A program made the translations under genes and the position numbers. 64,000 bases of DNA from Nitrospira tepida (GTDB lineage: Bacteria > Nitrospirota > Nitrospiria > Nitrospirales > Nitrospiraceae): assembly GCF_947241125.1 (NCBI RefSeq), contig NZ_OX365700.1, positions 744,001-808,000 of the forward strand. The letters run 5' to 3'. The notes beneath the pieces were generated by a model. That model was given only the letters and a program-made list of their open reading frames with translations, did no database searches and was not told where the DNA came from. This document shows, piece after piece, positions 28,724-56,877 of the stretch (the first letter of the stretch is position 1; the number at the start of each line of letters is the position of its first letter).

Positions 28724-30146
28724 GCCAGGCGCTTCTCCCATGCCACCAGCCGGGCCGCGACGGCCTGCCGGCCCGTGCCGCCGGTCTGGCTTTTCCGTTC
28801 GATCGCGCCCTGCACGGTCAGCCGTTCCATGACGTCGGCTTCGAATTGCTTCGCGAACCGCTTGAGCTCGCCGAGCGAGAGATCGGCCAGCTCGCGGCGC
28901 TTCTCGATGCAGTACCGGACGATCTGTCCGACAATCGCGTGGGTCTCGCGGAAGGGAAGGCCCTTGAGCACGAGATAATCCGCCAGCTCCGTGGCCAACA
29001 TGCCCCCGACCTCCGCTGCCTGCTCGACGACAGGGCGGTTTACGCGGAGTCCCTGGACCAACTCGGCGAGCACCTCCACCGACGCCTGGGCCGTGTCCAG
29101 CGCGTCAAACAAGGCCTCCTTATCTTCCTGCATATCGCGGTTGTAACTCAACGGCAGGCCCTTGAGGGTCGTCAGCATCCCCATCAGATGGCCGTACACC
29201 CGGCCGGTTTTCCCGCGCACCAGCTCCGGAACGTCGGGGTTCTTTTTCTGCGGCATCATGCTGCTGCCGGTGCAAAACCGATCGGGAAGATCCACAAAGC
29301 GGAACTCCTGCGAGGCCCAGAGGATCAGTTCTTCGCTGAGCCGGGACAGATGCATCATCAGCACCGCCAAGGCAGCCAAGACTTCGACGACGAAGTCCCG
29401 GTCCGAGACGGCGTCCAGGCTGTTCTGTGATACAGCCGGGAACGAAAGGAGCTGAGCCGTGTACTGCCGATCAACGGGATAGTTCGTGCCGGCCAGCGCC
29501 CCGGAGCCAAGGGGCATCACATTTAGGCGAACAAGGGCGTCGGCCAGCCGTCCCTTGTCCCGCTCCAACATTTCGACGTAGGCCAGCCAGTGGTGCGACA
29601 CCAGCACCGGCTGAGCCCGCTGCAAGTGGGTATAGCCCGGCATGACGATGCCGAGATTGGCCCGAGCCTGAGAGACAAACGCGCGCTGCAGGGCTTCCAG
29701 CCTGCTGCGAAGGGTTGCAAGCATGTCGCGCAGATACAGGCGCAGGTCCGTGGCCACCTGGTCGTTACGGCTGCGCCCGGTATGGAGCTTGCCGCCCACC
29801 GGACCCACCAGCTCGGTCAGCCGCCGCTCGATGGCCATGTGGATGTCCTCGTCGCCGGGATGAAACCGGAAGCGCTTCCGGTCCAATTCGGCTTGCACCT
29901 GTTCGAGCCCCCGGATCAGGGTCTTGGCCTCTGTGGCCGTGAGGATGCCGGCGCGTTGGAGCGTCCGGCAATGGGCCAGGCTGCCTTGAATGTCCCAGGA
30001 GTAGAGCCGTTGATCGAACTGCACGGAAGCGGTAAAGGCTTCCACGAGGCGATTCGTCTCTTCGCCGAACCGCCCGGCCCAGGCCTTCAGACCCTTGGTG
30101 CTGGCTCTGGCTTTCGGTTTGGTCGATCCTCTCCGGCGGGTGGATT

Positions 30147-49423: not shown

Positions 49424-50824
49424 ATGACCGACATCACCGCGTTGACGGTGGGGGCCGGTGTTGGAATCCTGGCAGGGGCGCTGATCGCGGGCTGGTGGGT
49501 CGCGGCGCACCTGCGCCGGCGTTTCCACGATCAGGTGATGGAGGCGGCGGAGCGCGCCCAAAAGGCGGAAACCGTTGTAGCCGAGCTGAGGCGACGCGCC
49601 GAACTGGAGCAGGCGGAGATCGTCCGGTTGCGGGCCTCGCTCAGTGAATCCCAACAGGCCTTCGTGGCGGCGGAGACGAGGCGCGAAGAAGCGTTGAAGC
49701 GGGTGGAGGAACAGCAGGCCATCCTGGCTCAGGCCCGGCTTGAATTAGCGGAAACCTTTCAGGCCCTCTCGGGGACGGCCTTGCAGCGGAACAACGAGGC
49801 CTTTCTCAATCTCGCCAAAACGACCTTTCAAGCCATACAGGCCGAGGCCAAGGGCGAATGGTCTCGACGGCATCAGGCGATCGACGACCTGGTGAAACCG
49901 CTCCACGATCAGCTCGGCCGGTATGCCGACCAGTTGCAGCAACTGGAACAGTCTCGACAGGCCGCCTATGGGGGGCTCGACCAACATCTGCGGCTGCTGG
50001 CCGAGTCGCAGCAGCGGTTGCAGCAGGAAACCGGGCAGCTCGTCAACGCCTTGCGGACGCCGGCCGTCCGGGGGCGCTGGGGAGAGATGACGCTCAGACG
50101 GGTGGCGGAGCTGGCCGGCATGGTGCCGCATTGCGACTTCTTCGAGCAGGAGAGCGTGGTCTCGGAGGAGGGCCGCGCGCGGCCGGACATGCTGGTGCGG
50201 TTGCCGGGCGGCCGGCAGATCGTCATCGACGCGAAGGCCGTCTTGAGCGCTTATCTCGAAGCCCATGACGCGCCGAATGACGACCAGCGGGCGGAGCGGC
50301 TGAAGCGACACGCCGCGCAGATCCGCGCCCGAATGGAGGAGCTGAGCCTCAAGGCCTACTGGACCCAGTTCAATCTGGCGCCGGAGTTCGTGGTGTTGTT
50401 CCTGCCAGGCGAGCAATTTCTGGGCGCGGCCCTCGAACAGGACCCGACCCTGATCGAGGACGGGTTTTCCCGGGGCGTGGTGGTGGCCACGCCGACGACG
50501 CTCATGGCGCTCCTGCGGGCGGTGGCCTACGGCTGGCGGCAGGAACAGTTGACCGCGCATGCGCAGGAGGCCGGTCGCTTGGGAAAGGACCTCTACGAGC
50601 GGATGGCCCTGCTCGCGCAGTATCTCAACGAGATCGGCGCGGCGCTGGGAAAAAGCGTCGCGGCCTACAATCGCGCGGTCGGGTCGCTGGAAAGCCGGGT
50701 CTGGCCGGCTGCGCGCAAATTCAAGGACCTGGGTATTGCCACGGAAAAAGAGGTGCCGCTGATCGAGCCGGTGGAGGTTTTCCCGCGACAATCTTCACAG
50801 ATCGAAGCGGAGAAGATCATTTAG
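49424..50824 (+). CDS. rmuC: DNA recombination protein RmuC
   Basis: 466 residues. An N-terminal hydrophobic anchor (LTVGAGVGILAGALIAGWWV) is followed by a long coiled coil (about 35-200) and the RmuC nuclease-like core: VRGRWGEMTLRRVAELAGM, RPDMLVRLPGGRQIVIDAKA with the PD-(D/E)xK-like Asp and Lys, and FVVLFLPGEQFLGAAL. RmuC limits recombination at inverted repeats and has recently been linked to anti-plasmid or phage effects in some bacteria. It sits immediately left of the AT-rich nucleotide cassette. Confidence 0.93.
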   Translation: MTDITALTVGAGVGILAGALIAGWWVAAHLRRRFHDQVMEAAERAQKAETVVAELRRRAELEQAEIVRLRASLSESQQAFVAAETRREEALKRVEEQQAILAQARLELAETFQALSGTALQRNNEAFLNLAKTTFQAIQAEAKGEWSRRHQAIDDLVKPLHDQLGRYADQLQQLEQSRQAAYGGLDQHLRLLAESQQRLQQETGQLVNALRTPAVRGRWGEMTLRRVAELAGMVPHCDFFEQESVVSEEGRARPDMLVRLPGGRQIVIDAKAVLSAYLEAHDAPNDDQRAERLKRHAAQIRARMEELSLKAYWTQFNLAPEFVVLFLPGEQFLGAALEQDPTLIEDGFSRGVVVATPTTLMALLRAVAYGWRQEQLTAHAQEAGRLGKDLYERMALLAQYLNEIGAALGKSVAAYNRAVGSLESRVWPAARKFKDLGIATEKEVPLIEPVEVFPRQSSQIEAEKII

Positions 50825-50915: not shown

Positions 50916-50971
50916 CCGACCGATCAACGGCGGAGACGCTATTCACGGGTTGTGCTGCGAAGGACTTGATA

Positions 50972-52558
50972 GTGTCGACGACCAATGAAATTCTTCCTCG
51001 TACATTCCTTCACGCGCCTCGGGTAGGACAGAAAACCGAGAAAGCGCTCTGGGAGAGCGGTATCACTTCCTGGGGCAAGTTTCTCAATTCTTCTTCAACC
51101 CTGCTTAAGCCACTGCGTTCACAACCCCAAGTTTTCCGGATCATCGAGCAGTCGGCGGAAGCCCTCGAGAAGAAGAACGTCACATTTTTTTCTCGGGCTC
51201 TAGCTCCCGAGGCGTGGTGGCGCCTCTATCCAAGCTTTGAATCAAGGACTGTTTTTTTGGACATTGAGACGACGGGTCTCTCTCACTACTACGATGAAAT
51301 CACGCTCGTGGGGCTCTATGACGGCAATCGGGTGCGGACCTTGCTGTCGGGTCATAACCTGAAGCAGTTGCCGGAACTCCTCGCCCAGTACGACATCGTC
51401 GTCACCTTTAACGGGACATTGTTTGACCTCCCATTCCTGAGGGCGAAACTGCCATCTCTTCGTCTGCCATCGGTGCATCTCGACCTGCGTTATCTCCTCA
51501 AGCGACTAGGCTATTCGGGTGGGCTTAAAGACATTGAGCAAAGACTGGGTATTCGGCGGGGTCCTGAGGCACGGGCCGTGAATGGCTATCTGGCCACCGT
51601 ATTGTGGGCGCGCTACAAACGAGGCGACATGTCGGCCTTGGAACAGCTCGTCAAATACAATATCGCGGATGTGATGAGCCTTCGCCCTCTCATGCGGTTT
51701 GCCTGCCGCGAGCTGACGGCGGGCCTGTTGTTCAGAGAGAAGCAGCGGATACCGACGATCACATCAAAACCTCTCAAAGCCGTCCCAGTCCATGTCTCCA
51801 AGGTCAATGGCAACGGGGTTACCCTGATTGTTGGTGGTGCCGCGGTCTTGCTTCGTAAACGCCCGCTCGAACGGTCGCCTATCAGGCTGAGCAATCTATT
51901 AGAGAACATTCAGTGCTCAGGAGGGGCTCCCAGGGTTGTTGGAATCGATCTACGCGGAAGTGAGGTGAGACCGACGGGATGGGCCTTGCTTGAAGGTGAG
52001 CAAGCCTACACCAGATTGGTGAAATCGGATGCCGAAATCGTGCAGGAAACAATCCGCCACCGTCCGGACCTTATCTCAATCGATTCTCCATTAGGCATTC
52101 CATACGGACGCTGCTGCACTCAGGATTCATGTCGATGTCGAAGCAAAGGAATCTTGAGGGAGTGCGAACGAGTGCTGTGGAGACGAGGTGTCAAGGTGTT
52201 TCCCTGCCTGCTCCCGAGTATGCAGAAGCTGACCGAGCGCGGCATCCGTCTCGCCAAAGAGTTCCGCGAACGGGGCTTCCGCGTCATCGAAAGTTACCCT
52301 GGGGCGGCCCAAGACATCATGCGTATTCCGAGAAAGAGATCGAGTGTGCATGAACTGGCTCAGGGGTTAGCCGCCTTCGGCATCAAGGGGCCGTTTACAT
52401 CTGTCCCCTGCAGCCATGATGAGTTGGACGCCATCACGTCCGCTGTCGTCGGCGACTTCTACCTTGCCGGGATGTATGAACCACTCGGTGATCAGCGCGA
52501 GGAGTGCTTGATCGTCCCAAAACTGGATAAGCTCATGTCTCACAACCCCGACAGCTAA
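50972..52558 (+). CDS. Two-domain nuclease: DEDD-type RNase H-like exonuclease fused to DUF429
   Basis: 528 residues from GTG 50972 (GAAGGA seven bases upstream; TTG 50966 is possible). Residues 1-90 form a helical N-terminus with ESGITSWGKFLN-type helix-hairpin-helix flavour. About 90-250 is an RNase_H_2/YprB-like exonuclease domain: VFLDIETTG, VVTFNGTLFDLPFLRAKLP and YNIADVMSLRPLM supply the DEDD acidic residues. About 320-510 is a DUF429 domain: VVGIDLRGSE, LISIDSPLG, RVIESYPGAAQ and HDELDAITSA give a second RNase H-fold acidic site. CCTQDSCRCRSKG in the middle is Cys-rich. It is followed six bases later by the PurZ-like gene, so the two are surely co-expressed. Confidence 0.8.
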   Translation: MSTTNEILPRTFLHAPRVGQKTEKALWESGITSWGKFLNSSSTLLKPLRSQPQVFRIIEQSAEALEKKNVTFFSRALAPEAWWRLYPSFESRTVFLDIETTGLSHYYDEITLVGLYDGNRVRTLLSGHNLKQLPELLAQYDIVVTFNGTLFDLPFLRAKLPSLRLPSVHLDLRYLLKRLGYSGGLKDIEQRLGIRRGPEARAVNGYLATVLWARYKRGDMSALEQLVKYNIADVMSLRPLMRFACRELTAGLLFREKQRIPTITSKPLKAVPVHVSKVNGNGVTLIVGGAAVLLRKRPLERSPIRLSNLLENIQCSGGAPRVVGIDLRGSEVRPTGWALLEGEQAYTRLVKSDAEIVQETIRHRPDLISIDSPLGIPYGRCCTQDSCRCRSKGILRECERVLWRRGVKVFPCLLPSMQKLTERGIRLAKEFRERGFRVIESYPGAAQDIMRIPRKRSSVHELAQGLAAFGIKGPFTSVPCSHDELDAITSAVVGDFYLAGMYEPLGDQREECLIVPKLDKLMSHNPDS

Positions 52559-52564
52559 AGAACA

Positions 52565-53614
52565 ATGCCTCTCACGGTGGTGGTCGGTGGACAGTTTGGA
52601 TCGGAAGGGAAGGGCAAGGTAACTTCTTACCTTGCCCTGCGGGACCGCGTTGACATCGTGGTGCGCTGCGGGGGACCGAATTCGGGCCACACGGTGGATG
52701 TGGACGGCCAGCGTTACGAGCTACGCCTGCTCCCATGTGGGTTCCTTAATCCTAACACCCGCCTCCTGCTCGCCGCTGGTTCGTTGATCGCTCCGGACAT
52801 CCTGTTAGCGGAGATTAAGGCGGCTGGGATCGATGCCAGCCGAGTGGGGGTAGACCGTAATGCAGGCATCATCTCAGGCGATTACGCTGAAGAGGAGAAG
52901 AAGCTGCTCTTAAGAGATCGTCTCGGGTCAACCTTATCTGGGACAGGGATCGCGGTGGCCTATCGCGTCTTACGGAAACCCGATTTCAAGCTTGCCAAGG
53001 ATATCCCAGAACTGAAGCCATTTCTCACGGATGTGTCTGCAGAGGTCAATGGGGTGCTGGATAAAGGCGGGAAGGTCATCATTGAAGGGACGCAAGGATT
53101 CGGCCTCTCCGTCTACCATTCGCCACACTATCCCTATGCCACGAGCCGGGATACGACAGCGAGTGGGTTTCTGAGCGAAGTCGGGGTGAGCCCGCGGTTA
53201 GTGACCGACATCGTGATGGCGGTCCGTACCTATCCCATTCGAGTCGCTGGTAGTTCCGGGCCGCTGCTGAATGAGGTTACGTGGGAGGAAGTCCGCCGGA
53301 GAAGTGGATATCCAACTGATATTCGCGAATTCACAACGACGACCAAGAAACTTAGAAGGGTAGGCCTATTCGATCTTGAGTTGGTACGGCGGGCTGTAAT
53401 GGTGAACAGGCCAACTCAAATTGCTCTCCACGGAGCAGATTATCTTTCGTACTTGAACAAGTCTGTGAGGACACATGAGGAGCTAGATCATCTTACGCGC
53501 TCCTTTATCACAGACCTGGAGAATGCAACCGGCGTTCCTGTGTCAATAACAGGAACGGGGCCAGCGAACGAAGAATTGATAGATAGAGGCAATCACTTTC
53601 ATGGAGCTTCCTGA
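52565..53614 (+). CDS. Short adenylosuccinate synthetase homologue, PurZ-like
   Basis: 349 residues, about 80 fewer than housekeeping PurA. The P-loop reads GGQFGSEGKGK: Ser13 stands where PurA has its catalytic Asp13, while His42 (NSGHT) is kept. Other motifs: RLLLAAGSLIAPD, IEGTQGFGLSVYH, YPYATSRDTTASG and a substrate loop TTTTKKLRRVG (257-267) in place of the PurA VTGRxRRxGW. The Asp-to-Ser change, the short length and the TKKxRRV loop are, as I know them, marks of PurZ, which condenses dGMP with aspartate on the way to 2-aminoadenine. The compact form is shared with archaeal PurA. Substrate dGMP or another purine nucleotide is inference. Its 3' end overlaps the next gene by 14 bases. Confidence 0.82.
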   Translation: MPLTVVVGGQFGSEGKGKVTSYLALRDRVDIVVRCGGPNSGHTVDVDGQRYELRLLPCGFLNPNTRLLLAAGSLIAPDILLAEIKAAGIDASRVGVDRNAGIISGDYAEEEKKLLLRDRLGSTLSGTGIAVAYRVLRKPDFKLAKDIPELKPFLTDVSAEVNGVLDKGGKVIIEGTQGFGLSVYHSPHYPYATSRDTTASGFLSEVGVSPRLVTDIVMAVRTYPIRVAGSSGPLLNEVTWEEVRRRSGYPTDIREFTTTTKKLRRVGLFDLELVRRAVMVNRPTQIALHGADYLSYLNKSVRTHEELDHLTRSFITDLENATGVPVSITGTGPANEELIDRGNHFHGAS

Positions 53615-54710
53615 GTCCTACAAGCAACCGAAGCCAGAAGTGAAAGAAGAAGATTTCTGGCTGGATCCTGACAAGGATTCTCCTGCTGGTCTCCTACTTT
53701 CTGACCGCATTAAGTTCTACAGGGAAAAAGTAAATCTAATCTATCCATTCGATGAGAAGTTTCTAGAGCCTGCCTCTTATACGCTTCATGCAGGTGGTGA
53801 GTATCTAATTCATGACGAGAGTGGCAAGAGAATCTCAGGAGTTTTGGGGGCAGCCGGCAAAGTCATAATTCCCCCGAATGGCCTCATCTATATAAGATTT
53901 CTTGAGGAAGTTAATATTCCCCACTACATGATTGCTAGGTTCAATCTCCGAGTAAAACAAGTTTATCGTGGATTGCTTCTGGGAACCGGACCTCAGGTAG
54001 ACCCGGGCTTCAGGGGGCACCTCGGCTGTCCATTACATAACTTCACAAATGAAGAAAAAGCGATCGAGTTTTTTGAAAAGTTAGTAACCATAGATTTTGA
54101 AAAAACTACTCCGCTGGGCCAGAAGTATTTTGCGGACAAAAATCCTGAGAAATTGGGTGCTCAAGACTTCGGTCAGATGCGACACGGGTTAATTACGGTG
54201 ACCGGACTTAGCAATTACCCGTGCAAGATATACAACAAAGAACAAGATCGCCCACTAAGAGATTATTTGCCGCAGGGTGAAAGTGTCCAAAGCTCAGTGT
54301 TCGAACTTCAGACTGAAGTGAAGCATCTGCGAGACGAGGTGAAGGAATTTGGAAGTACCATCCAGAGATACAGAAATATCGGTATTTGGTCCCTAATTGG
54401 AACAGCTCTTACGCTTGTAGGTGGTTTGGTGACGCTCGACTTGTATCTGCACCAGAGCTTGGAAAGCAAATACTTGAACTTGGAAACCAACTTTTTTAGC
54501 GGCTACATGAATCTGAAAGACAATTACCAGAATATTAAAGATAGCATTTCTGAAATTAACAAGACGTTGGGTCACCTTGAGGCTGTAAAGGATATCAGCA
54601 TAACAGCACGAGGCGAATCAGCGACAAGCTCAATGGCCAAAGAGTCCCCAAAGTTAAAGGAGCAGAGCACTAAAGCTAATAGCGGCAAGAAGCAGGCAGG
54701 GAGAGATTAG
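53601..54710 (+). CDS. Membrane-tethered dCTP deaminase/dUTPase-fold protein
   Basis: 369 residues. Residues 28-190 have the dCTP deaminase/dUTPase fold: FLEPASYTLHAGGEYLI, IIPPNGLIYIRFLEEVNIP, then GTGPQVDPGFRGHLGCPLHN with the VDPGFRG turn that carries the nucleotide-site Asp near residue 133. A coiled coil (SSVFELQTEVKHLRDEVKEF) leads to one membrane helix (IGIWSLIGTALTLVGGLVTL, about 259-280), then a second helical, polar tail rich in Lys and Ser. The dCTP deaminase catalytic Glu is not obvious in the PLHNFTN stretch, so catalysis is uncertain. The gene is the most AT-rich of the cassette. It starts inside the PurZ-like gene and ends two bases before the NUDIX-like gene. Confidence 0.72.
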   Translation: MELPESYKQPKPEVKEEDFWLDPDKDSPAGLLLSDRIKFYREKVNLIYPFDEKFLEPASYTLHAGGEYLIHDESGKRISGVLGAAGKVIIPPNGLIYIRFLEEVNIPHYMIARFNLRVKQVYRGLLLGTGPQVDPGFRGHLGCPLHNFTNEEKAIEFFEKLVTIDFEKTTPLGQKYFADKNPEKLGAQDFGQMRHGLITVTGLSNYPCKIYNKEQDRPLRDYLPQGESVQSSVFELQTEVKHLRDEVKEFGSTIQRYRNIGIWSLIGTALTLVGGLVTLDLYLHQSLESKYLNLETNFFSGYMNLKDNYQNIKDSISEINKTLGHLEAVKDISITARGESATSSMAKESPKLKEQSTKANSGKKQAGRD

Positions 54711-54712
54711 TT

Positions 54713-55381
54713 ATGGGGCAGTTGGTTCTTGTGTGTGAAACTTCGCTCATCAGAAAGTTCGGTGGATTCCAGGGTTATTCTCTTGACCTTGCAGTTGGGC
54801 TAGTAACGGTCCTTAACCCTATGAATAATTTCTTCGTCGAACGAGATCGTGCTGAGAAAGATCCTGCATACAAACAACTCATACCTTATGTTGTCCTGAG
54901 ATGTGGAGACTACGTCTTTAGCTATGTTCGAGGCAGGAACTCCAGTGAGTCTCGCCTTGTAGCAATGAGATCTATTGGCGTTGGTGGGCATATCGAGCCG
55001 GCCGATCAAAGCCTGTTCTCGTCAGATCGTGAGATGTACTTGGATGCTGCACGGCGCGAAGTACGTGAGGAAGTGAAAATCGACACACCCTACGTTGAGT
55101 ACGTTGTGGCGCTCATCAACGATGATTCAACCGACGTGGGAAAAGTTCATCTCGGTATCATGCATATCTGGGATTTGGCTGAGCCCAAGGTGACGAAGCG
55201 TGAAGGTCTTATCACCCAAGCGGGATTTGTTCCCATTGCGAGACTGAAGAACGCTCGCGAGGAATTGGAAACGTGGTCCCAGATTGCCCTGGATGTTCTT
55301 GAGGATCCGCGAGTCCCTGGTTGGAGTGAGCCCAATATGATGCAGAAAGGTGTTGCATCCTCGAAGGCGGTTGAGAAATGA
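54713..55381 (+). CDS. NUDIX-like hydrolase
   Basis: 222 residues. FQGYSLDL and AYKQLIPYVVLRCGDYVFSYVRG precede SIGVGGHIEPADQ and, after an insertion, AARREVREEVKI, which together form a modified Nudix box (G...REVxEEV). VALINDDSTDVGKVHLGIMH and LITQAGFVPIARL complete the fold. This resembles a phage- and bacteria-borne NUDIX subfamily with the RxSIGVGGHI motif. Such enzymes hydrolyse nucleoside diphosphates linked to another group; in the Z-nucleotide pathway a dGTP pyrophosphohydrolase (MazZ) supplies dGMP, and a NUDIX enzyme could play that part here, which is inference. It is the last gene of the cassette. Confidence 0.75.
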   Translation: MGQLVLVCETSLIRKFGGFQGYSLDLAVGLVTVLNPMNNFFVERDRAEKDPAYKQLIPYVVLRCGDYVFSYVRGRNSSESRLVAMRSIGVGGHIEPADQSLFSSDREMYLDAARREVREEVKIDTPYVEYVVALINDDSTDVGKVHLGIMHIWDLAEPKVTKREGLITQAGFVPIARLKNAREELETWSQIALDVLEDPRVPGWSEPNMMQKGVASSKAVEK

Positions 55382-55448: not shown

Positions 55449-55961
55449 ATGAAAGAGCCCCATTGCCCCGAGTGTGGAACCACATTTGTGCGAGTCATTC
55501 ACCAGGCGACGATGGCCGACTCGCTCCTGCAACTGCTTCGGGTCTATTCGTTCCGGTGTCAGCTCTGCACGGCGCAGTTTCGGGCCTTCCGCCCGGCGGC
55601 GCGCGACCTGACGCAGGCCTTTGACCGCCGGCAATACAAGCGACTCCCCACCTCCTGCATGGCGACGCTCGTCACCGACCTGCTCAGTCCGCGGGAAATG
55701 GTCACGGACATCTCGATGGGCGGGTGCAGCGTGCGGATGGAAAGCCCGCTCCCGCTGGGGACGTTTCTGGGGTTGCAGTTCCAGACCGCCGAACGGGGAG
55801 CCGGCATCACCGTCTCGACCGCGATGGTCCGTTCGGTGCGTGAGCGCTCGGTCGGCATTCAATTTCTGGAGATCGAGCGCGATCAAAAAACCAAGCTGAG
55901 CCAGTACGTCCATGGCCTGCTGCTGAGCCAGGGACTGGCGGCGGAGGCATCCCCTTCCTGA
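55449..55961 (+). CDS. PilZ domain protein with zinc-ribbon-like N-terminus
   Basis: 170 residues. HCPECGTTFVRV and FRCQLCTAQFRAF are CxxC pairs of a zinc ribbon (residues 5-45). The PilZ domain follows with the c-di-GMP motif RRQYKRLP (RxxxR) and DISMGGCSVRM (DxSxxG). It probably binds cyclic di-GMP and reports to an unknown partner. The ATG at 55449 is used; the frame upstream runs into the NUDIX gene. High-GC codon use resumes here, marking the end of the AT-rich cassette. Confidence 0.85.
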   Translation: MKEPHCPECGTTFVRVIHQATMADSLLQLLRVYSFRCQLCTAQFRAFRPAARDLTQAFDRRQYKRLPTSCMATLVTDLLSPREMVTDISMGGCSVRMESPLPLGTFLGLQFQTAERGAGITVSTAMVRSVRERSVGIQFLEIERDQKTKLSQYVHGLLLSQGLAAEASPS

Positions 55962-55974
55962 ACGGTGAGAGCGC

Positions 55975-56877
55975 TCACGCTCCGCTACGTCCCGCTCGGC
56001 GAGTCACCAGCAGATTATCGATCAATCGGACCGTCCGGACCGTCCGCTCCGTTTTCTTCGGAGTTTCCGCGCCGATCCTGACCGCTCCCAACAGCAGCGC
56101 GTTCCGAGTGATCCGATGCAGCGGCTCCAGCGTGTCCGGATCGCACACGGCCAGATAGTCGATCGCGATCAACGGCTCTTTTCGGATCACTCGGACCATC
56201 CCCTGACGCACGAGCGCGCCTGAGGAGACGCCTCGCTTGACGGTTGCCGCGCCGGTCTGCAAGGCCCGGTACAACAGCGGAGCCAGACGGCGTTGCCGCT
56301 CGGTGAGGTAGGCATTCCGAGAGCTGAGGGCGAGGCCGTCCGGCTCGCGCACCGTCGGGTGGACTACAATGGAGGTGCCGAGGTTCAGGTCGGCGACCAG
56401 CCGCCGGATCACGCAAACCTGTTGATAATCCTTCTGTCCGAAAATCGACTGATCCGGACGAACGATGCCGAACAGTTTGGTGACGACCGTGGCAACGCCC
56501 GAGAAATGCTGCGGCCTCTGTTCTCCCTCCCACCGTTTCGAAATCTCCGGAACCACCACGACCGTCTGAAAACCGGCCGGATACATGGCGGAGGCGCTCG
56601 GGGCAAAGAGGACGTCGATGCCCTCTTCCCGGCACAGGCGGGCATCCCGTCGGAACGGGCGGGGGTAGCGGGCATAGTCTTCGCGCGGACCGAATTGCGC
56701 TGGATTCACGAAGATGCTGACGACCACGGCGTCGCAGGTCAATCTAGCGCGGCGGATCAGCGCCCGATGTCCTTCGTGCAAGGCGCCCATCGTCGGCACG
56801 AAGCCGATGGTGCCTCCCTCGCGTTGAACCGAACGGCTCCATGCGGTCATGGCCGCCGGGGATCGCAGGATCAGCAT
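55975..56877 (-). CDS. panC: Pantothenate synthetase
   Basis: 300 residues. VPTMGALHEGHRALIRRA (HxGH), VSIFVNPAQFGPREDY, FGQKDYQQVCVIRRLV and ALSSRNAYL are complete. It joins pantoate and beta-alanine with ATP. The ATG at 56877 overlaps the folK stop (TGATG). The C-terminus runs some 15 residues past the usual end, rich in Arg. Last gene of the folK-panC pair. Confidence 0.96.
   Translation of the reverse strand: MLILRSPAAMTAWSRSVQREGGTIGFVPTMGALHEGHRALIRRARLTCDAVVVSIFVNPAQFGPREDYARYPRPFRRDARLCREEGIDVLFAPSASAMYPAGFQTVVVVPEISKRWEGEQRPQHFSGVATVVTKLFGIVRPDQSIFGQKDYQQVCVIRRLVADLNLGTSIVVHPTVREPDGLALSSRNAYLTERQRRLAPLLYRALQTGAATVKRGVSSGALVRQGMVRVIRKEPLIAIDYLAVCDPDTLEPLHRITRNALLLGAVRIGAETPKKTERTVRTVRLIDNLLVTRRAGRSGA

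Follow-up and report, generated by a model that had tools for sequence, protein, structure and literature searches.

The window, by which we mean the whole 64,000-nucleotide stretch of the Nitrospira tepida genome that was analysed (positions 744,001 to 808,000 of NZ_OX365700.1), contains three consecutive genes between rmuC and PilZ-panC: an exonuclease-DUF429 fusion, a PurZ-like homologue of adenylosuccinate synthetase (PurA) and a protein with the dUTPase/dCTP deaminase (DCD) fold (Table 1). The catalytic base of PurA is Asp13, and it is this residue that the PurZ-like protein replaces with serine, in the P-loop GQFGSEGKGK. The open reading frame begins with ATG, encodes 349 residues and overlaps the DCD-fold frame by 14 bp. 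A first-pass annotation had described a PurA homologue of this length carrying GSEGKGK and neighboured by nuclease and dNTP-fold genes. Both descriptions were borne out, the former by the open frame, the Pfam family PF00709 (E = 7e-56) and the codon for residue 13, and the latter by Pfam matches in the two adjoining genes.

Table 1. Coordinates of the features in the window, with strand and supporting evidence
Feature	Position	Strand	Evidence
rmuC, left boundary of the insertion, outside the system	49424..50824	+	PF02646; rmuC near PilZ-panC in operon-free relatives
Fusion of a DEDD-type exonuclease (RNase_H_2) with DUF429, an RNase H-like predicted nuclease; opens the operon	50966..52558	+	PF13482, E 1.9e-32; PF04250, E 4e-5
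Short adenylosuccinate synthetase homologue with Ser13, PurZ-like (PurZ0-type)	52565..53614	+	Profile matches, trees, alignment, model
Ser13 codon TCG, in place of PurA catalytic Asp13	52601..52603	+	Sequence, alignment
dUTPase/dCTP-deaminase-fold protein, long coiled coil, putative membrane helix (about residues 260-280)	53601..54710	+	PF22769, E 1.1e-7; Foldseek; hydropathy
Nudix-like hydrolase (phrog_8902)	54713..55381	+	PF00293, E 5e-4, just under cut-off; phrog_8902, E 4e-33
PilZ gene (+) and panC (-), right boundary of the insertion	55449..56877	.	PF07238; relatives

The PurZ-like enzyme

The PurZ-like frame is a real gene under purifying selection, since the window copy and the 83% identical copy in a related genome (G002) differ mainly at third codon positions (0.138, 0.103 and 0.511 at positions 1, 2 and 3), since this identity exceeds that of the flanking rmuC (69.5%) and panC (64%), and since homologues in other genomes and in many viral contigs share the substitution of Asp13. 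It was also doubted at first pass that this could be the housekeeping PurA, and a search of the genome (4.73 Mb, single contig) did find a separate, full purA with the normal GDEGKGK (C1:3749973-3751226, a 445-aa open frame, 614.8 bits). The genome also encodes purB and a two-domain dCTP deaminase. Elsewhere in the window, a lyase-family frame on the reverse strand (28825-29856) has weak similarity to PurB, its 78.5 bits falling below the cut-off.

In profile searches the protein matches phrog_1211, a phage family named '2-aminooxy adenylosuccinate synthetase' (E = 4e-75), scores just under the cut-off of the archaeal short PurA model PRK04293 (357.7 bits against 368), and reaches 232.2 bits with the curated phage PurZ model NF038379 (cut-off 300), so that it is not filed as phage PurZ. 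In the alignment the IMP-binding loop is rebuilt, as had been proposed, to FTTTTKKLRRVG, a T-K-K-x-R-R pattern that phage phiVC8 PurZ also has; the ribose loop reads PIRVAGSSG where PurA has TRVGAG; and lysine stands at the position of PurA Arg303. An insertion in the ribose loop near the conserved Val, with the pattern PIRV[AG]GxSG, is common to the window protein, PurZ and PurZ0, and this loop has been linked to tighter packing against the sugar C2' (PMC8342488). At the guanine-nucleotide site the protein keeps Asp292, as does PurZ0, where classical phage PurZ has Asn. Serine occupies position 13 in 147 of 147 phage PurZ/PurZ0 proteins, and four basal relatives from archaea have Ser or Gly there (PMC12884076).

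The nearest described enzymes are those of the PurZ0 phages (PDB 7vf6; Ghobes, Wayne), which share with the window Ser13, the lysine at the Arg303 position, the Asp at the guanine-nucleotide site, a corresponding ribose loop (PIRVAGNSG) and a dUTPase-fold gene in the neighbourhood. They differ in their P-loop (GSEAKG rather than GSEGKG), with about 36-40% identity overall, and in context: the window gene lies in a bacterial chromosome without phage, DpoZ or DmtZ genes, and is accompanied by a nuclease and by a partner with a membrane/coiled-coil tail. Classical PurZ (phiVC8, S-2L) shares Ser13, the ribose loop and T-K-K-x-RR, whereas its P-loop is of the GST form and its nucleotide-base site is of the ATP type, at about 29-33% identity among the phages compared. 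The archaeal short PurA of P. horikoshii (PH0438; 2d7u/5k7x) resembles the window protein in length, fold and identity (40%), but has Asp13 and Arg303 and lacks the ribose-loop insertion. The label PurZ-like stands as to branch and is refined as to type, the protein being nearer to PurZ0, with its GTP-type guanine pocket, than to the ATP-using classical PurZ, whose cut-off it does not reach.

Two trees of PurZ/PurA proteins, of 91 and 45 sequences, both recover a single Ser/Gly13 clade that holds the window protein, phage PurZ and PurZ0 (SH-aLRT 100; bootstrap/SH-aLRT 100/100) and excludes P. horikoshii PurA, the PurA of a Rhizobium deazapurine cluster and housekeeping PurA. As an AU test rejected a union of the window clade with two short, archaeal-type Asp13 PurA rows (p = 0.001), the window protein is not an archaeal PurA as sampled here, with one true archaeal PurA in the trees. 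The looser alternative, which takes the window clade away from the other Ser13 proteins and joins it to all Asp13 PurA, was not rejected (p = 0.061). Within the Ser13 clade the window protein forms a separate branch, not inside the PurZ0 clade of phages proper. Most members of the clade are viral, in a sample biased towards Ser/Gly13 because the pattern used to scan viral contigs contained G[SG]EGKG. Outside Nitrospira, the PurZ-like sequences nearest to the window protein (55% and 51%) come from large uncultivated viral contigs, L052 (188 kb) and L053. Most likely, then, the adenylosuccinate synthetase branch with Ser/Gly13 (PurZ/PurZ0) has here a bacterial member that is encoded in an operon, very probably PurZ0-like in class rather than PurZ0 itself.

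An AlphaFold model of the protein is confident (pLDDT 86.7, pTM 0.89); the alignments behind this and the other structure models were built from window, genome and viral-contig sequences only. Foldseek ranks P. horikoshii PurA first, followed by PurA generally and PurZ0. This order is expected for a short form and does not discriminate between substrates. It is the PurZ-type ribose loop that makes a purine deoxynucleotide a plausible substrate, as the first-pass annotation had supposed; among such nucleotides dGMP is probably the main one, and by analogy with PurZ0 the phosphate donor would be GTP.

Operon composition, distribution and insertion site

The complete order exonuclease-DUF429, PurZ-like, DCD-fold is present in G000, G002 and G341 (Nitrospira-type), in the distant Nitrospirota genome G294 and in the Bacillota genome G702, and loci cut by contig ends retain its first two genes (L006) or its first gene (G017). 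In G294 and G702 the PurZ-like protein carries Gly13 and a deoxynucleoside kinase (PF01712) is added, while on S. medicae plasmids a PurZ/DCD pair occurs with a divergent HD protein of the dNMP-phosphatase type. The full-length exonuclease-DUF429 fusion was seen only in genomes that have the operon and in loci truncated by the end of a contig; its single domains are widespread, DUF429 being a predicted nuclease (PMC3985635). No DpoZ-type polymerase, MazZ or DatZ was found in the operon. Ser/Gly13 proteins were detected, at the threshold used, in 4 of 396 Nitrospirota and 2 of 398 Bacillota genomes. The enzyme had been called unusual for a bacterial chromosome; it is indeed rare, but not unique to this one, and the genes around it very likely form a real, conserved and so far undescribed operon. 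Its conservation in two phyla is a weightier finding than the enzyme by itself.

The operon is flanked by rmuC and PilZ-panC-folK, and occupies the interval between rmuC and PilZ-panC in G002, in G341 and in the window. Among the relatives examined, about half show an empty site, with rmuC close to PilZ-panC, and the remaining loci are too short to tell. In the three genomes with the insertion, the operon genes have a GC content of 0.44-0.58, against 0.60-0.67 for rmuC and panC. No phage structural or replication genes and no DpoZ, DatZ or MazZ were identified near the operon, in agreement with the earlier remark that phage structural genes are missing from a chromosomal neighbourhood. The Nudix gene that follows may be a resident neighbour rather than part of the operon, because G016 has it at this site while lacking the other genes, and because its GC content is like that of its surroundings (0.597); the same two observations rule it out as a certain operon member.

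The third protein has its best Foldseek match in the Thermococcus dUTPase 8y1w (E = 2e-10), followed by bifunctional DCD-dUTPases; the model used for this search is of low confidence, though better in its core. It shares with this family the fold, a conserved Asp and, as in 8y1w, the absence of the deaminase Glu, and differs from it in its long coiled coil, its putative membrane helix and a Pro at the deaminase-Glu position. Since this proline (Pro144) is invariant among the DCD-fold proteins aligned, where the M. jannaschii deaminase has Glu145, deamination seems unlikely. Because 8y1w, a dUTPase, also lacks that Glu, the protein may still hydrolyse or bind dNTPs, and for the same reason we do not read the protein as a catalytically dead sensor. 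The putative membrane helix shows only moderate hydropathy in the window protein (1.76, with PurZ controls reaching 1.67) and stands out clearly in the Bacillota homologue (2.63). The window and G002 copies are only 32% identical, compared with 83% for the PurZ-like proteins; the greater similarity of the G002 copy to its G294 counterpart (48%) suggests that this gene has been exchanged. A dUTPase-fold protein, DutZ, accompanies PurZ0 in 98 of 98 PurZ0 phages, and both DutZ enzymes assayed hydrolyse dATP and dGTP (PMC12884076). We regard the two pairs, DutZ with PurZ0 and the DCD-fold protein with the PurZ-like enzyme, as a parallel in function rather than as demonstrated homologues. In two further Bacillota genomes, a DCD-fold protein whose membrane helix is strong (L151 4047-6889 in G662; L152 6182-9143 in G525) adjoins an FAD-type oxidoreductase and a 3-methyladenine-glycosylase-like gene, followed in G525 by a dGTPase-like HD gene, these neighbours being named by eye.

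Defence-gene neighbours and candidate roles

Cousin loci of the PurZ-like gene, some of them plasmid-borne, adjoin known or predicted defence genes: IetA/IetS in G702, PDC-S01 in G294, SIR2 with DUF87 and AbiE genes in CB3171, and PDC-S32 with a RelA/SpoT gene in Kim5. Close to the S. medicae PurZ/DCD pair lies BilD of the bacterial ISG15-like system (L008 10612-11943, 550 bits). Beside the window operon itself no other defence genes were identified; PADLOC models gave no match for the PurZ-like or the DCD-fold protein and a weak PDC-S44 match for DUF429, and a literature search for adenylosuccinate-type enzymes in anti-phage defence returned nothing relevant. This link through the cousins' neighbours is guilt by association and suggestive only, and we put an anti-phage role of the operon at even chances. 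Bacteria possess nucleotide-based anti-phage systems, among them dCTP deaminase, dGTPase and Kongming dITP signalling. The window operon may be likened to these in its nucleotide-modifying enzyme, effector-like partners and patchy distribution, and differs in that its PurZ-like and DCD-fold proteins have no counterpart among the PADLOC models.

Based on these findings, we lean, with somewhat better than even confidence, towards a PurZ0-type enzyme acting within an undescribed, probably anti-phage, deoxynucleotide operon that would be small and horizontally acquired. The enzyme would condense a guanine deoxynucleotide (dGMP or, less probably, GMP) with aspartate, spending GTP, to yield N6-succino-2-amino-dAMP, which the host's own PurB could turn into dZMP. 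The DCD/dUTPase-fold partner, probably membrane-tethered, would bind or hydrolyse deoxynucleotides; loci of other lineages add a deoxynucleoside kinase or an HD-type protein resembling dNMP phosphatases. The likeliest role is phage defence through depletion or alteration of the purine deoxynucleotide pool or through a nucleotide signal, with the nuclease and the membrane protein as effectors. More tentatively, and at less than even confidence, we propose a new anti-phage system in which the PurZ-type enzyme makes 2-aminoadenine-type deoxynucleotides, or their succinyl precursors, to poison, to deplete the pool or to signal, with the membrane-bound dUTPase-fold protein as the sensor and a coupling to the nuclease.

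The accessory genes, all of families that act on deoxynucleotides (DCD/dUTPase fold, Nudix, deoxynucleoside kinase, HD dNMP phosphatase), also suit a metabolic operon that makes or clears 2-aminopurine deoxynucleotides, in salvage or in sanitation of the dNTP pool, with dGMP supplied by the dUTPase-fold protein, the Nudix enzyme or the kinase. The best structural match of the third protein, a dUTPase itself devoid of the deaminase Glu, and the precedent of phage DutZ (PMC12884076) point the same way. A rare, patchy, low-GC insertion with a nuclease in first place, a fast-changing third gene and cousins beside defence genes is nevertheless untypical of housekeeping metabolism, and we think this explanation unlikely. 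The partners' deoxynucleotide families, together with an insertion tied to deoxyribose selection, argue against a ribonucleotide substrate, in which case the enzyme would turn GMP into a 2-amino-adenine ribonucleotide destined for a small molecule or for signalling. We give that idea a low probability, although a Paenibacillus homologue (46%) without the PurZ ribose-loop insertion does lie in a biosynthesis-like cluster.

Two further explanations concern the origin of the enzyme. It could be a paralogue of ordinary archaeal-type adenylosuccinate synthetase, still acting on IMP and tolerating Ser13, as its near-threshold archaeal PurA score, its best Foldseek match and the retained GTP-site Asp would allow. 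However, the catalytic base is lost, the ribose loop is of the PurZ type, lysine stands at position 303, union with archaeal-type Asp13 PurA was rejected and the genome holds a full housekeeping purA elsewhere, which together disfavour an ordinary PurA and make the IMP paralogue improbable. The viral contigs that contain the closest sequences outside Nitrospira, and the largely viral membership of the clade, would fit a remnant of a Z-genome phage, domesticated or passively acquired and without host function. Against this prophage or Z-phage relic stand the lack of phage genes at the site, purifying selection, a gene order shared across two phyla, and a DCD-fold partner for which no relatives were found in viral contigs (one pattern scan) or in phage records, and we consider it very unlikely.

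PurZ is known as the hallmark of phages whose DNA carries 2-aminoadenine in place of adenine. An operon built on a PurZ0-like enzyme, conserved in two phyla and related to loci that adjoin defence genes, would mean that Z-type nucleotides have a role in bacteria, and would indicate a nucleotide-based immune system that is as yet undescribed and directly testable. If the proposed anti-phage system is real, the Z-genome enzymes of phages and bacterial defence are perhaps of shared origin. The bacterial PurZ-like proteins would moreover offer candidates for the step between archaeal PurA and phage PurZ.

Other homologues in bacterial and viral contigs

Several homologues recovered alongside the operon have other architectures or contexts. 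Proteins of about 520-560 residues, with an extra N-terminal region before the Ser13 PurZ-like domain, occur in L009, L011, L012, L136 and L137, and likewise in the viral contigs L063, L066, L075-L077, L083, L087 and L119; the one in L009 has a P-loop kinase-like domain, and a DUF7002 partner is present in L009, L011 and L012. On a plasmid of R. leguminosarum (L010 8001-9008), a short PurA with Asp13 lies in a cluster of folE, purB, QueE, IMP dehydrogenase-like, nitrile hydratase, QueC, HAD, PRT and QueD genes that resembles 7-deazapurine nucleoside biosynthesis. The Ser13 homologue of Paenibacillus (L007) clusters with Nudix, PRTase-like, aminotransferase-like, amino acid kinase and HisA-like genes, and a second PurA, of the normal type, is encoded about 15 kb away.
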